Part shown: positions 6,295 to 15,143 of the stretch, in pieces
How positions within the stretch are numbered: position 1 is the first letter of the stretch
Layout: every line of letters begins with the position of its first letter
Origin: an uncultured Synergistales bacterium
Lineage (GTDB): Bacteria; Synergistota; Synergistia; Synergistales; Aminobacteriaceae
Assembly (NCBI GenBank): GCA_905233725.1
Contig: CAJOEM010000007.1
Location: 1-54,532, forward strand
Direction of reading: 5' to 3'
Length of the DNA: 54,532 nucleotides
Made by a program: the position numbers and the translations under genes
The notes under the pieces: model-generated
Told to the model about the DNA's origin: nothing
What the model saw: the letters and a program-made list of their open reading frames with translations, nothing else
Databases searched by the model: none

Positions 6295-7911
6295 ATGAGC
6301 GAAATGTATGACGTTGTTATCGTTGGTGGCGGTCCTGCAGGATTAACGGCTGCGATTTATCTGGCGCGTGCGTGCTATCGTGTCGTAGTCGTTGAGAAAG
6401 AAAAATTCGGCGGTCAAATCACAATCACCAGCGAAGTCGTAAATTATCCCGGCTCTGAACCTGTCAGCGGAACTGAACTCACGGATCGAATGCGTCGTCA
6501 AGCTGAGAATTTCGGGGCAGAATTTATGCTCGCGGAAGTCAAAGCTCTCGATATGTCCGGAACTATCAAGAAAGTCACAACTACTAAAGGCGTTCTCGAA
6601 TGTTTCGGCGTTCTTCTGGCGACGGGTGCTCACCCAAGAATGATCGGATTCAAAGGCGAAGCAGAATTTCGTGGACATGGTGTTGCGTATTGTGCGACGT
6701 GTGACGGAGAATTTTTCACGGGCAAAACTGTTTTCGTAGTCGGCGGAGGATTTGCTGCTGCTGAAGAGAGCGTTTTCCTGACGAAATATGCTTCACACGT
6801 CAACATACTAATCCGCAAAGATGATTTCTCTTGCGCGAAAGCTACGGCTGATGAAGCGAAATCTAACCCGAAAATTTCTGTATTCACGAACACCGAAGTA
6901 GAATCAGTCTCAGGTGACGACGTTCTCCGGAAGATTATATACAAGAACAACAAAACCGGTGAGATTACAACTTTTGCTCCGGAGAATGACACGTTCGGAG
7001 TATTCGTGTTTGCCGGATATTCGCCTTCAACTGAGCTTGTGAAAAATATCGCGGAACTCAACGAACAGGGCTATATCATAACTGACCGTCAACAGAAAAC
7101 TTCGTGCGAGGGATTATACGCTGCCGGCGATGTGTGCGTGAAAAATTTGCGGCAAGTCGTAACGGCTACGGGTGATGGGGCTTTAGCCGCGACTGAACTC
7201 GAAAAATACGCTGCGAAATTGCAGAAAGAAACCGGCATCAAACCAGCTCAACCAGTCACTCACAAAACGCAGATTCAAAACCAGAAAACAGAGCCACAAA
7301 AATCCGGAGCATTGTTTGACCAAGACATGATTAAGCAGCTCAATACGGTCTTCTCACGAATGCAGGACAGCTTGATTCTGGAATTGCATCTCGATAATCA
7401 GGAAATTTCGCGTGAACTTGAGAATTACGTGAATGAACTCGCATCACTTACGGACAAAATCACGATCCAGAAAGCAGCTTCCCCGATGGCAAATGCTCCG
7501 TGCGTGAAAGTTTTGAAATCAGACGGCAGCGAAACTGGAATGGCTTTTCACGGTGTGCCCGGCGGACATGAATTTCAGTCGTTCGTTCTGGGATTATACA
7601 ACATGGCTGGTCCCGGTCAGAAAATCGACGAGGCTGTGAAAACCCGCGTGCAGAATCTCGACAGGGATATTAACATGCAAATACTGGTGTCTTTATCATG
7701 CACGATGTGTCCGGAATTAGTCGTGAGTGCTCAGAGAATCGCGTCGCTGAATCGTCACGTCAAAACCGAAGTTTTCGATTTAGCGCATTTCCCGGATTTA
7801 CGCGCAAAATATAACGTTATGAGCGTTCCATGCTACGTAATCAACGACGGCAAACCGATGTTCGGCAAAAAGAATATCGAGCAGTTAATGGACGTTTTCG
7901 AAAACTTGTAG
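6295..7911 (+). CDS. ahpF: AhpF-like NAD(P)H:peroxiredoxin reductase with permuted domain order (TrxR domain first, AhpF N-terminal-type thioredoxin folds last)
   Basis: Residues 1 to about 315 are a thioredoxin-reductase/AhpF flavoprotein core: FAD motif GGGPAG (11-16), redox pair C133-A-T-C136, NAD(P)H motif VVGGGFAAAE, and the C-terminal AAGDV FAD signature. After a Gln/Lys/Pro-rich linker (about 315-345), residues 345-538 resemble the double-thioredoxin N-terminal domain of AhpF, with C469-T-M-C472 and a cis-Pro 'SVPCYV' motif. In E. coli AhpF the thioredoxin folds come first; here they come last. The expected electron path is NAD(P)H to FAD, to C133/C136, to C469/C472, to AhpC. There is no good SD of its own, so it is probably translationally coupled to ahpC. 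The gene symbol reflects inferred function. Confidence 0.85.
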   Translation: MSEMYDVVIVGGGPAGLTAAIYLARACYRVVVVEKEKFGGQITITSEVVNYPGSEPVSGTELTDRMRRQAENFGAEFMLAEVKALDMSGTIKKVTTTKGVLECFGVLLATGAHPRMIGFKGEAEFRGHGVAYCATCDGEFFTGKTVFVVGGGFAAAEESVFLTKYASHVNILIRKDDFSCAKATADEAKSNPKISVFTNTEVESVSGDDVLRKIIYKNNKTGEITTFAPENDTFGVFVFAGYSPSTELVKNIAELNEQGYIITDRQQKTSCEGLYAAGDVCVKNLRQVVTATGDGALAATELEKYAAKLQKETGIKPAQPVTHKTQIQNQKTEPQKSGALFDQDMIKQLNTVFSRMQDSLILELHLDNQEISRELENYVNELASLTDKITIQKAASPMANAPCVKVLKSDGSETGMAFHGVPGGHEFQSFVLGLYNMAGPGQKIDEAVKTRVQNLDRDINMQILVSLSCTMCPELVVSAQRIASLNRHVKTEVFDLAHFPDLRAKYNVMSVPCYVINDGKPMFGKKNIEQLMDVFENL

Positions 7912-11862: not shown

Positions 11863-11924
11863 TCTCGTAAATTATCGCAAATTTTCATTACATATCCCAA
11901 AAAAATTTTCATGACGAATCAAAC

Positions 11925-11962
11925 TTTCACGCAAATACGAAAACTTGTGATAATATTCTCGC
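11925..11962 (+). promoter_or_regulatory. Leaderless promoter of the LytTR regulator gene
   Basis: TTCACG, 17 bp and GATAAT preceded by TGT (extended -10) end only 8 nt before the ATG at 11963. The predicted transcription start would fall at or within 1-2 nt of the start codon, and no Shine-Dalgarno sequence is present. Confidence 0.5.
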
Positions 11963-12703
11963 ATGATTAACATTGCAATCGTTGACGATAATTTGCCTGA
12001 TGTTGTGAAGCTTGAGAGTTATATTCAGAACTGGAATTTAAGCAACGTATCTTCGTATAATAACGGCTCGGAGTTCCTGAGGGAATTTGAACCGGGAATT
12101 TTTCACGTGGTCTTCATGGATATTATAATGGACGGGCTTTCGGGCATTCAGACAGCACGGCAGATTCGCAGCGAAGATTCGCAAATACTGATCGTATTCA
12201 TAACTACGTCGCGAGAATATGCTTTTGATGCGTTCAGCGTTCACCCGTTCGAATACATTATCAAGCCATTCAACGAAAATTCCGTTGCAAAAGTTCTTGA
12301 CGAAGCCGCGAGATTTTTTGCGTCACCTGACCCAAGCGTTGCGATAAAAATTCCGCATTGCGAGTATAATATCCCGATTCGCTTAATAATTTCAGCGGTA
12401 TCCAGCAATCATTCAGTCGAGATTAACTTGTCAAACGGTAAGAATTTGCTCAGCAATATGAGATTCGCTCAAATCGAGAAAATGCTCGTGCAATTCCCGA
12501 ACTTTCTTGCGTGTAATCGTGGCGTAATCGTGAACATGTCACAAATTTCTGCTCTTGATAAGGACGTATTCGTCATGAAAAACGGCGAGAGATTCCCGAT
12601 TCGTGTGAACGGTCGTGCGAAAATAATTTCCAGATTCTCACAATTCCTGATCGCTAACATGAGAGGCAGTGTGACAAATAATGCTTCTGAGATACGTGCT
12701 TAA
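11963..12703 (+). CDS. LytTR-family response regulator (AgrA/LytR type)
   Basis: This 246-residue cytoplasmic transcription factor has a receiver domain (residues 1-120; acidic D8/D9, phospho-acceptor D53 in VFMDIIMDG, switch Lys in IIKPF) and a LytTR DNA-binding domain (about 145-235; motif FLACNRGVIVNMSQI). The ATG is immediately preceded by a -10-like element with no ribosome binding site, so it is probably translated from a leaderless mRNA. The cognate kinase gene overlaps its last 23 nt. The direct repeats at 13841-13869 match the LytTR half-site consensus and are the best candidate target. Confidence 0.93.
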   Translation: MINIAIVDDNLPDVVKLESYIQNWNLSNVSSYNNGSEFLREFEPGIFHVVFMDIIMDGLSGIQTARQIRSEDSQILIVFITTSREYAFDAFSVHPFEYIIKPFNENSVAKVLDEAARFFASPDPSVAIKIPHCEYNIPIRLIISAVSSNHSVEINLSNGKNLLSNMRFAQIEKMLVQFPNFLACNRGVIVNMSQISALDKDVFVMKNGERFPIRVNGRAKIISRFSQFLIANMRGSVTNNASEIRA

Positions 12704-13841
12704 ATTCGCGATTGTGATCCCGGCTGTGATTTTTGCGATTTTGCCTGTGCGCGAGAATATCGGGAAAAATTTTCGTGTGAAGCTTAGCTTGGGGAAAAAA
12801 TTATTCTGCTTGTTCAACGCGATTATGCTGTGTATGTTTAGCAATTTCATGACGTTATTTCTGGCGGCTGAACTCGAACTCACGAATAATCTCTGGTACG
12901 AGAAGAATCTTGTGACGATTGAGTCCGGGATTATGCGTTTGAGCATTGCGTTTGTGTTGGGGATAATTTTCTTCAGGACGCTGCATGATAAAATCCCAAT
13001 GCTGATGCAACAAGAACGTATCGACAAAATCTGGAATTTCCTGTGTTTGATCCCGATGTTTATGACGCTGTTTATCTGGTGGGCAAGTCCGCTGCACCCG
13101 AAAGTTATGTTGGAAGGACGCGTGCGAGCGGTTGCAGTTGCGATTGCGTGTGTGTTGCTGGCGATGATATTTATCATGTATCAGGTGTTCTGGTGGACGG
13201 CTGAGAATCTAATCGAAGGGGCAAAATTGCAACAGGAGAACACGTTATTATCAATCGAGGGCAAACGTTACCGTGAATTGCGAAAATACATGGACGCGAC
13301 ACGTGCATTACGACACGATTTCAGGCAGCATATTCGCGTGATAACGCAACTATCAAATTCCGGGAATTTCGCCGAGCTGCGAAAATATCTGCAACAGTTC
13401 AGCGAATCCACCGAAAAAAATTACGCTGCTTATTGCGAGAATATTTCTGTTGATGCGATTGCTTCGTATTACGCGTCATTTGCCGAGAATCAGGGAACGA
13501 AAATTATTTGGCAGCTGAATTTGCCGAGTGAATTGCCGTTACGAGAGTCCGAATATTGCGCGATGTTGGGAAATTTGCTGGAGAATGCGCTGCGAGCCGT
13601 GAAGAATTTGCCCGAACAAGATCGTCACGTGAAAGTAATCTCGTCATTATTATCTGAATATATCATTGGACTTTCGATTGACAACGTGTTTTACGGCGAA
13701 ATAGAATCCGTGAAGCCTGGAATTGGTCTCACGTCCGTAATGAACACTGTGAAAAGATTCGATGGGTCTATGAGCATCAAGTGTGAGAATAATATTTTCT
13801 CGGTCGATATAATTCTTTACTGTGACGCGCAATTTGCGTAA
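12681..13841 (+). CDS. GHKL (AgrC/CitA-like) sensor histidine kinase
   Basis: This 386-residue membrane kinase has about five transmembrane helices in residues 7-170, a coiled linker, and an HPK10-type phosphoacceptor motif R211-H212-DFRQH. The ATPase domain (about 285-380) has an N-box around ENALRAVKN and a GIGL-type G box (KPGIGLTSV). It has no obvious periplasmic sensor domain, so a membrane-embedded sensor for a peptide or small molecule is plausible. The start overlaps the regulator gene in another frame. No autoinducer-peptide gene is recognisable next to it. Confidence 0.9.
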   Translation: MLLRYVLKFAIVIPAVIFAILPVRENIGKNFRVKLSLGKKLFCLFNAIMLCMFSNFMTLFLAAELELTNNLWYEKNLVTIESGIMRLSIAFVLGIIFFRTLHDKIPMLMQQERIDKIWNFLCLIPMFMTLFIWWASPLHPKVMLEGRVRAVAVAIACVLLAMIFIMYQVFWWTAENLIEGAKLQQENTLLSIEGKRYRELRKYMDATRALRHDFRQHIRVITQLSNSGNFAELRKYLQQFSESTEKNYAAYCENISVDAIASYYASFAENQGTKIIWQLNLPSELPLRESEYCAMLGNLLENALRAVKNLPEQDRHVKVISSLLSEYIIGLSIDNVFYGEIESVKPGIGLTSVMNTVKRFDGSMSIKCENNIFSVDIILYCDAQFA

Positions 13842-13869
13842 ACGTTTATTTTTTTGCGTAAACGTTTGT
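13841..13869 (+). promoter_or_regulatory. Candidate LytTR operator (two direct half-sites)
   Basis: AACGTTTAT (13841-13849) and AACGTTTGT (13861-13869) both fit the published LytTR half-site pattern [TA][AC][CA]GTTN[AG][TG]. They lie on the same strand with a 20-bp period. The surrounding 15-bp segment TTTGCGTAAACGTTT is repeated exactly at 13833 and 13853. The second site ends 9 bp before the -35 of the next gene, an activator position. Confidence 0.65.
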
Positions 13870-13878
13870 TCGAGTGTA

Positions 13879-13907
13879 TTGGATTTTTCGAAAGAACTTG
13901 GAATAAT
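13879..13907 (+). promoter_or_regulatory. Promoter of small exported protein gene
   Basis: TTGGAT (13879-13884), 17 bp, and AATAAT (13902-13907) preceded by TGG. The predicted leader is about 30 nt and includes the AGGAGG ribosome binding site at 13928. The weak -35 fits an activator-dependent promoter. Confidence 0.55.
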
Positions 13908-13944
13908 AATTGCAATTTTAATTCAACAGGAGGTTCTCTTAATC

Positions 13945-14370
13945 ATGAAGAGATTTGTATTAAGTTTGGCATTAGTATTCGCGTTTAGTTTTGCGGCATT
14001 TGCTGGCGTTCAGGATTTCGGCGCGTACACGGTTGACGTTCCCGAGGGTTGGACAGCTGAACAGGACGGCTCAACGGTCAATATTCTCAAAAACGACAAC
14101 TCAGCACTCTTGAGCATTACTTACGATGACGCTGAAGGAATGAGCGCGGCTGATTTAGCGAAGGCATTTTCGGAACAGTTCGGCGGTTCAGCACCTGCAA
14201 AAGACGGTGAAAATTACACGTTCGAGTTCAAGAATGCTAACGGTGTTGCGAGTACCGGAATCGTAGCAGTTGATTCTGGCAGCGGAAAATTTGTTCTGTT
14301 CGTGATCACCGGCGCGGAAAATGCTCCTGAAGAAATTTCCGGAATGATTGGCTCTCTTCAAGACAAATAA
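13945..14370 (+). CDS. Small exported protein, DcrB/PsbP-like fold suspected
   Basis: The 141-residue product starts with a signal peptide (MKRFVLSLALVFAFSFAAFA, predicted cleavage after AFA). The mature part begins GVQDFGAYTVDVPEGW, a pattern seen in DcrB/DUF1795 and PsbP-like small periplasmic proteins, and ends with an acidic helix. The family assignment is tentative. The ATG at 13945 has AGGAGG 11 nt upstream; the frame extends to 13822 but would bypass the signal peptide and overlap the kinase gene. It is the likely output gene of the adjacent LytTR two-component system. Confidence 0.8.
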   Translation: MKRFVLSLALVFAFSFAAFAGVQDFGAYTVDVPEGWTAEQDGSTVNILKNDNSALLSITYDDAEGMSAADLAKAFSEQFGGSAPAKDGENYTFEFKNANGVASTGIVAVDSGSGKFVLFVITGAENAPEEISGMIGSLQDK

Positions 14371-14456: not shown

Positions 14457-15143
14457 TTACCTGTAATCCGGATAGAGCTTTTTCACAACATCGTCCGGTA
14501 TTTCGAAATGCTGGTAATCTTTCACGCTCTGCCAATTACCGCCCCATTCGAAGCCCTTCTCGATGAATAATTTGTAGCACAAGTCATCCGTATCGATCTT
14601 GTACGGGAAATTCCTCGTGCGATCTACATAATCTGCGGCGTTCGCTGGTTCGAGAATATTCTTGCCGTCAACAACTTTCACGTAAGGATTATAGCGTGTG
14701 TTAATATCGACTGCCAAACCCAAGCCGTGTTTCGAAATCTTTGTCGTGTGCGAGATAAACCTGAAGTTAAAGCTCGACGAGTTATTATCGCGCATCGACA
14801 TCTCATCATCAGCATCGTACTCGTCAACAAGTCTGATTCGCTCAATCGGGTAATCTGCCTCGAAAAGTTTACGCAGAATTTCCAGAACATCATCGGCAAT
14901 ATAAGCGTTGCAAATCATTTCGCCCTCGTGAATATTCCCGTCCAAATCTTTGTGCAGAACGTGCAAATATCTCAGGTCGTCAAGACTCAGCGGACAATTA
15001 TCTTTGAAAGACTTGCCTTTAATCCGCGCGAAAATCTCGTCCGTAATCTTAGACGTGTAAAAATCCTGCGTATCTGCGAATGCCTGCGTGCATAATAATA
15101 ATATTACAATACTTGCTGCCAAAATAATAATCGTGTTTTTCAT
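14457..15143 (-). CDS. Exported M15-family peptidase (D-Ala-D-Ala carboxypeptidase/endopeptidase-like)
   Basis: This 228-residue protein has a signal peptide (1-23, cleavage after AFA). The zinc-site signature of peptidase M15 is present: H139-GLGLAV-D146 and H212 in DYQHFE, with W203 (GGNW) nearby, as in the M15C (Ply500/YcdD-like) group. It probably cleaves peptidoglycan stem peptides in the periplasm. It is the last gene of a minus-strand run after the FAD oxidoreductase (12-nt gap). Confidence 0.88.
   Translation of the reverse strand: MKNTIIILAASIVILLLCTQAFADTQDFYTSKITDEIFARIKGKSFKDNCPLSLDDLRYLHVLHKDLDGNIHEGEMICNAYIADDVLEILRKLFEADYPIERIRLVDEYDADDEMSMRDNNSSSFNFRFISHTTKISKHGLGLAVDINTRYNPYVKVVDGKNILEPANAADYVDRTRNFPYKIDTDDLCYKLFIEKGFEWGGNWQSVKDYQHFEIPDDVVKKLYPDYR

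Follow-up and report, generated by a model that had tools for sequence, protein, structure and literature searches.

A candidate LytTR two-component circuit with a conserved direct-repeat site ahead of an exported-protein gene in an uncultured Synergistales bacterium

We analysed a 54,532-nt stretch of DNA from an uncultured Synergistales bacterium (the window), which is contig C7 of a 1.87-Mb genome. It carries the genes of a LytTR response regulator, an AgrC-like membrane histidine kinase and a small exported protein, here called EX (Table 1). The regulator combines the receiver (PF00072) and LytTR (PF04397) domains in one protein, each above its Pfam cut-off, and its LytTR domain was the only one found in a search of the genome. 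Residues D53, T81 and K101 were invariant among the relatives aligned. BtsR, the best NCBIfam match, was dropped as a name for the regulator, since the match reached 53 of 246 bits, far below the cut-off. The kinase gene overlaps the end of the regulator gene, and the adjacency of the two is kept in relatives. In Pfam searches, the kinase matched HATPase_c_5 above the cut-off (39.6 bits) and SPOB_a below its cut-off; hydropathy predicted ∼5 membrane helices, and the phospho-acceptor box reads RHDFRQH. Two parts that most relatives have are missing from this protein, a stretch of ∼50 residues (read as two membrane helices) and a loop close to the ATP lid, and its sensor part may have changed. 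The gap between the kinase and EX genes is 103 bp, with little room for a peptide gene. Convergent to EX, a gene at 14457–15143 on the minus strand encodes an exported M15 peptidase (PF13539), which was not found close to EX in the relatives fetched.

Table 1. Genes and putative regulatory elements of the locus, with positions in the window.
Feature	Position	Strand	Basis
LytTR response regulator (receiver + LytTR domain), 246 aa	11963–12703	+	PF00072 62.3 bits, PF04397 33.2 bits
AgrC-like membrane histidine kinase, 386 aa	12681–13841	+	Pfam, hydropathy, alignment with 9 relatives
Putative operator half-site 1, TGCGTAAACGT	13835–13845	+	Exact repeat, relatives' alignment, matrix score
Putative operator half-site 2, TGCGTAAACGT	13855–13865	+	Exact repeat, relatives' alignment, matrix score
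−35-like element, TTGGAT	13879–13884	+	Position conserved in 28-site alignment
−10-like element, AATAAT, 17-bp spacer after −35	13902–13907	+	Position conserved in 28-site alignment
Exported protein EX, 141 aa, signal peptide, PsbP/Mog1/DcrB fold (predicted)	13945–14370	+	AlphaFold2, PDB fold matches, homologues

Between the kinase and EX genes, the 11-bp sequence TGCGTAAACGT occurs twice in identical form, with a period of 20 bp. The initial annotation had pointed to two 9-mers in direct orientation at this period, and both are indeed present: AACGTTTAT (13841–13849) and AACGTTTGT (13861–13869) lie on the plus strand, 20 bp apart, with an 11-bp gap. A longer exact repeat, TTTGCGTAAACGTTT, covers 13833–13847 and 13853–13867. 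Within the window, the 18-mer TTTGCGTAAACGTTTRTT had two exact matches, as against ∼0.2 expected at up to three mismatches. Using a scoring matrix built from relatives' sites but not from those of the window, the pair scored 33.7 versus a best score of 18.5 in 30 random windows, and any other half-site spacing from 12 to 30 within the window scored at most 23.3. The repeat pair is thus confirmed as real and far above chance. Separately, a lone good half-site, TGCGTGAAAGT, was seen on the minus strand at 11923–11933, in the gap between a pyruvate formate-lyase-like gene and the regulator gene. We rejected it as a third operator, as it has no good partner at 20 bp and its pair score (11.6) is within the random range; a half-site as good as this one also lies inside a gene at 7501.

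The pair of 9-mers lies 9 bp upstream of the −35-like element, which matches TTGACA at three of six positions. This agrees with the earlier placement of the pair, 9 bp ahead of the −35 of the small exported gene and behind the regulator and kinase genes. Because a generic sigma-70 scan did not flag the −35/−10 pair, the promoter call rests on its conservation in relatives. The 11-bp gap between the 9-mers had been considered slightly short, a view that the literature does not bear out: LytTR repeats elsewhere have gaps of 11–13 bp and lie ∼10 bp before the −35 (PMC6193735). A gap of 11 bp and a distance of 9–10 bp to the −35 are within this range, so the spacing is not odd and the window fits the known LytTR plan.

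The initial annotation also suggested searching relatives for conserved repeats. Our comparison set comprised 61 genomes, namely the window genome and 60 relatives, and close homologues of the regulator were present in most of those from the same genus. An alignment of 28 sites gave the half-site TKCGYRAACGT, repeated at exactly 20 bp, with the second copy followed by 13 bp, TTG...A, 17 bp and TGAAATAAT. The conserved half-site reaches further 5′ than the LytTR consensus. While the 9-mers do fit the LytTR half-site pattern exactly in the window, as had been claimed, conservation across the 28 sites does not extend to the third T of GTT. Relatives' loci showed two arrangements: either the repeat was upstream of the regulator gene, with the regulator, kinase and EX genes tightly packed behind it, or it lay between the kinase and EX genes, as in the window. 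Of the 43 genomes of the genus, 36 had the site according to a sequence-only model, at up to 13 copies per genome and with the 20-bp period and a nearly fixed promoter distance; 24 genomes representing other genera in the order gave one weak partial match. In the window genome, the same model found one strong site (E 4.5e-15), the next best having an E of 0.014. Since this genome has just one LytTR protein and a single strong site, the pairing of site and regulator is nearly forced.

We then counted the first gene downstream of 74 sites from the relatives and the window; start codons lay at a median distance of 108 bp from the site. The regulator itself was the most frequent (15 sites), followed by EX and aspartokinase (8 each), an AGCS symporter (7), an unnamed 188-aa exported protein (6), LprI-like and surface-type proteins (4 each), and a Bmp-type binding protein and a 155-aa protein (3 each); 13 sites preceded other genes, and no gene was found for three. 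Pfam families among the targets included aspartokinase (AA_kinase, ACT), Na_Ala_symp fused to SBP_bac_3, LprI, Bmp, SH3_3, TMEM43 and a C1 peptidase with a lectin-like domain. A crude criterion assigned a signal-peptide-like start to 46 of 71 targets, versus 14 of the 44 genes in the window (p = 0.001). Together, these data support the view that in relatives the same site would control a wider regulon, mostly of exported or membrane proteins and often including the regulator operon. Given this wider regulon, and a site that often stands before the regulator operon, the earlier description of the circuit as self-contained fits the window genome but not the family as a whole. The genus-wide DNA site, its regulator and the target list are now testable for uncultured gut and rumen bacteria. 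At one locus (L164), a minus-strand gene starting 220 bp past the site encodes a sodium:alanine symporter that carries a fused family 3 solute-binding domain, and symporters of this family are found behind the site in several genomes.

Across the 43 genomes of the genus, a strong site was present in 28 of 29 regulator-positive versus 3 of 14 regulator-negative genomes (p = 7e-7), and when the comparison was restricted to sites distant from the regulator the counts were 18 of 29 versus 3 of 14 (p = 0.02); as the site model was trained near regulator genes, which makes the co-occurrence partly circular, and the genomes are related and hence not independent, these p-values serve as a guide only. 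Among the regulator-negative genomes with strong sites, in G010 an intact site is followed by a truncated regulator gene (L237, 1320–1487), and in G021 the regulator gene is broken. The third, G006, has three strong sites and a kinase gene directly after an aspartokinase gene (L227, 4470–7129, minus strand); no regulator was found in this genome, including between these two genes. Conversely, five genomes (G007, G013, G014, G019 and G029) have kept EX genes, with both the regulator and the upstream site absent; upstream scores were below 0 in these genomes versus 24–35 where the site is present.

The regulators split into two groups in the tree, with support of 100/100. Type I regulators are mostly encoded beside genes for aspartokinase, LprI-like proteins or the 188-aa exported protein, and type II regulators mostly ahead of EX genes. 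Base 2 of the second half-site, one of several positions inspected, was G in 9 of 12 genomes with type I only and T in 14 of 18 with type II only (p = 0.008). The window regulator groups with type I and its half-sites carry the G that type I predicts, with an EX gene as the putative target. Two regulator subfamilies with slightly different sites offer a case in which to study how LytTR specificity changes.

EX homologues were present in 36 of the 61 genomes and have formed tandem families. No Pfam family matched the window EX above its cut-off, and the names NPCBM_assoc, IPI_T4 and PsbP were rejected for the family, their matches being weak and mutually inconsistent. An AlphaFold2 model computed on 45 EX sequences (pLDDT 90.5) matched PsbP by Foldseek (E 5.6e-5), and the best PDB relatives of this predicted model include Mog1, PsbP, LpqN, Tsi3 and DcrB, with VIA Z scores of 8–11 (Mog1: Z 10.8, rmsd 3.1, 121 aligned; Tsi3: Z 9.7, rmsd 2.9, 103 aligned). 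The mature domain is therefore predicted to have the PsbP/Mog1/DcrB fold. EX has this fold in common with the proteins named above at no more than 18% identity among the structural alignments listed, and function is not transferable from such a match.

The locus combines a protein with receiver and LytTR domains, an adjacent GHKL membrane kinase and a direct repeat with fitting spacing, as expected of a LytTR two-component system. With AgrCA of Staphylococcus, and other LytTR regulators with AgrC-type kinases, it shares a GHKL-type HATPase_c_5 kinase and a LytTR regulator, and it resembles them in having a putative direct-repeat operator upstream of the −35 and in its predicted control of exported proteins. 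It differs from them in its half-site, TKCGYRAACGT, and in having PsbP-fold exported proteins among the predicted targets. In Agr quorum sensing, the peptidase AgrB acts on the AgrD pro-peptide. AgrB (PF04647) was found in none of the 43 genus genomes, in a search of poorly supported sensitivity, whose control matched 1 of 14 genomes only, below the cut-off; we therefore do not consider this a full Agr quorum-sensing system. The promoter spacer is 17 bp, compared with 18–20 bp at AgrA promoters (PMC4227749). LytTR Regulatory Systems (LRS) of the HdrRM/BrsRM type are alike in having direct repeats with an 11–13 bp gap ∼10 bp before the −35 and in being often autoregulatory (PMC6193735). LRS, however, have a membrane inhibitor and no kinase, whereas here there are a kinase and a receiver domain with a phosphate site, which sets the locus apart from them. 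We found no description of LytTR regulation in Synergistota in the literature searched, and although the circuit type is known, its branch in this Synergistaceae gut bacterium looks undescribed.

Comparison of the genomes shows the putative site, its spacing, the promoter position and the link with the regulator. The sensor–regulator–effector unit with a putative operator proposed in the initial annotation gains support from the genus-wide conservation, the co-occurrence, and the fact that the window genome has just one LytTR gene and one strong site. It is highly probable that these elements form a LytTR two-component circuit controlling EX through the two half-sites. The AgrC-like kinase would sense a signal through its membrane part and, going by what is known of the family, autophosphorylate at the first His of RHDFRQH and pass the phosphate to D53 of the regulator. 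The phosphorylated regulator would then bind the two copies of TKCGYRAACGT, 20 bp apart, with a pair of subunits sitting on the same face of the DNA. From ∼9 bp upstream of the weak −35, it would help RNA polymerase to start EX transcription; we infer activation from the position of the site and the weakness of the −35. In the window genome, the EX promoter would be the sole strong target. With its one regulator and one strong target, the window species offers the simplest setting in which to seek the signal.

A regulator that binds but represses, or acts without phosphorylation, so that the kinase signal turns EX off, is quite unlikely. The five genomes listed above retain EX genes but lack both the site and the regulator, which indicates that EX can be expressed independently and speaks for such a scheme. 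Activated LytTR promoters, however, have the site just upstream of the −35 without overlap (PMC6193735, PMC4227749), as is the case here, and the −35 of the window, with half of its positions off consensus, also argues for activation.

The site might also belong to another transcription factor, for example a LacI/PurR-type repressor reading the window core AAACGTTT, a perfect palindrome, in which case the LytTR neighbourhood would be incidental; the strong sites of G006, where no regulator was found, likewise count against LytTR ownership. Yet the palindrome is not conserved, as a T follows AACGT in only 10 of the 28 sites; what stays constant is the left part, directly repeated at 20 bp, and the site tracks both the presence and the type of the LytTR regulator. 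Ownership by another factor is thus very improbable. As for the repeats being a chance or structural feature, such as a portion of a kinase-gene terminator, the first half-site does overlap the kinase stop codon (TAA, 13839–13841). We nevertheless see practically no chance of this: there was no terminator-like or Rfam match, the score of the pair is far above that of random sequence, and both sequence and position are conserved genus-wide, far from kinase genes too.

What the LytTR circuit and its wider regulon might serve is a more speculative matter. They could defend the cell envelope, with the kinase sensing attack on the wall or membrane and the regulator inducing exported shield proteins, an idea that we rate as unlikely. 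Hints in this direction are LprI-family proteins, a bacterial SH3 protein and aspartokinase among the targets; the LprI family is named for lysozyme inhibition, and aspartokinase supplies precursors for peptidoglycan. A further hint is that EX shares its predicted fold with Tsi3, a muramidase-immunity protein, and that EX copies occur in tandem and are diverging.
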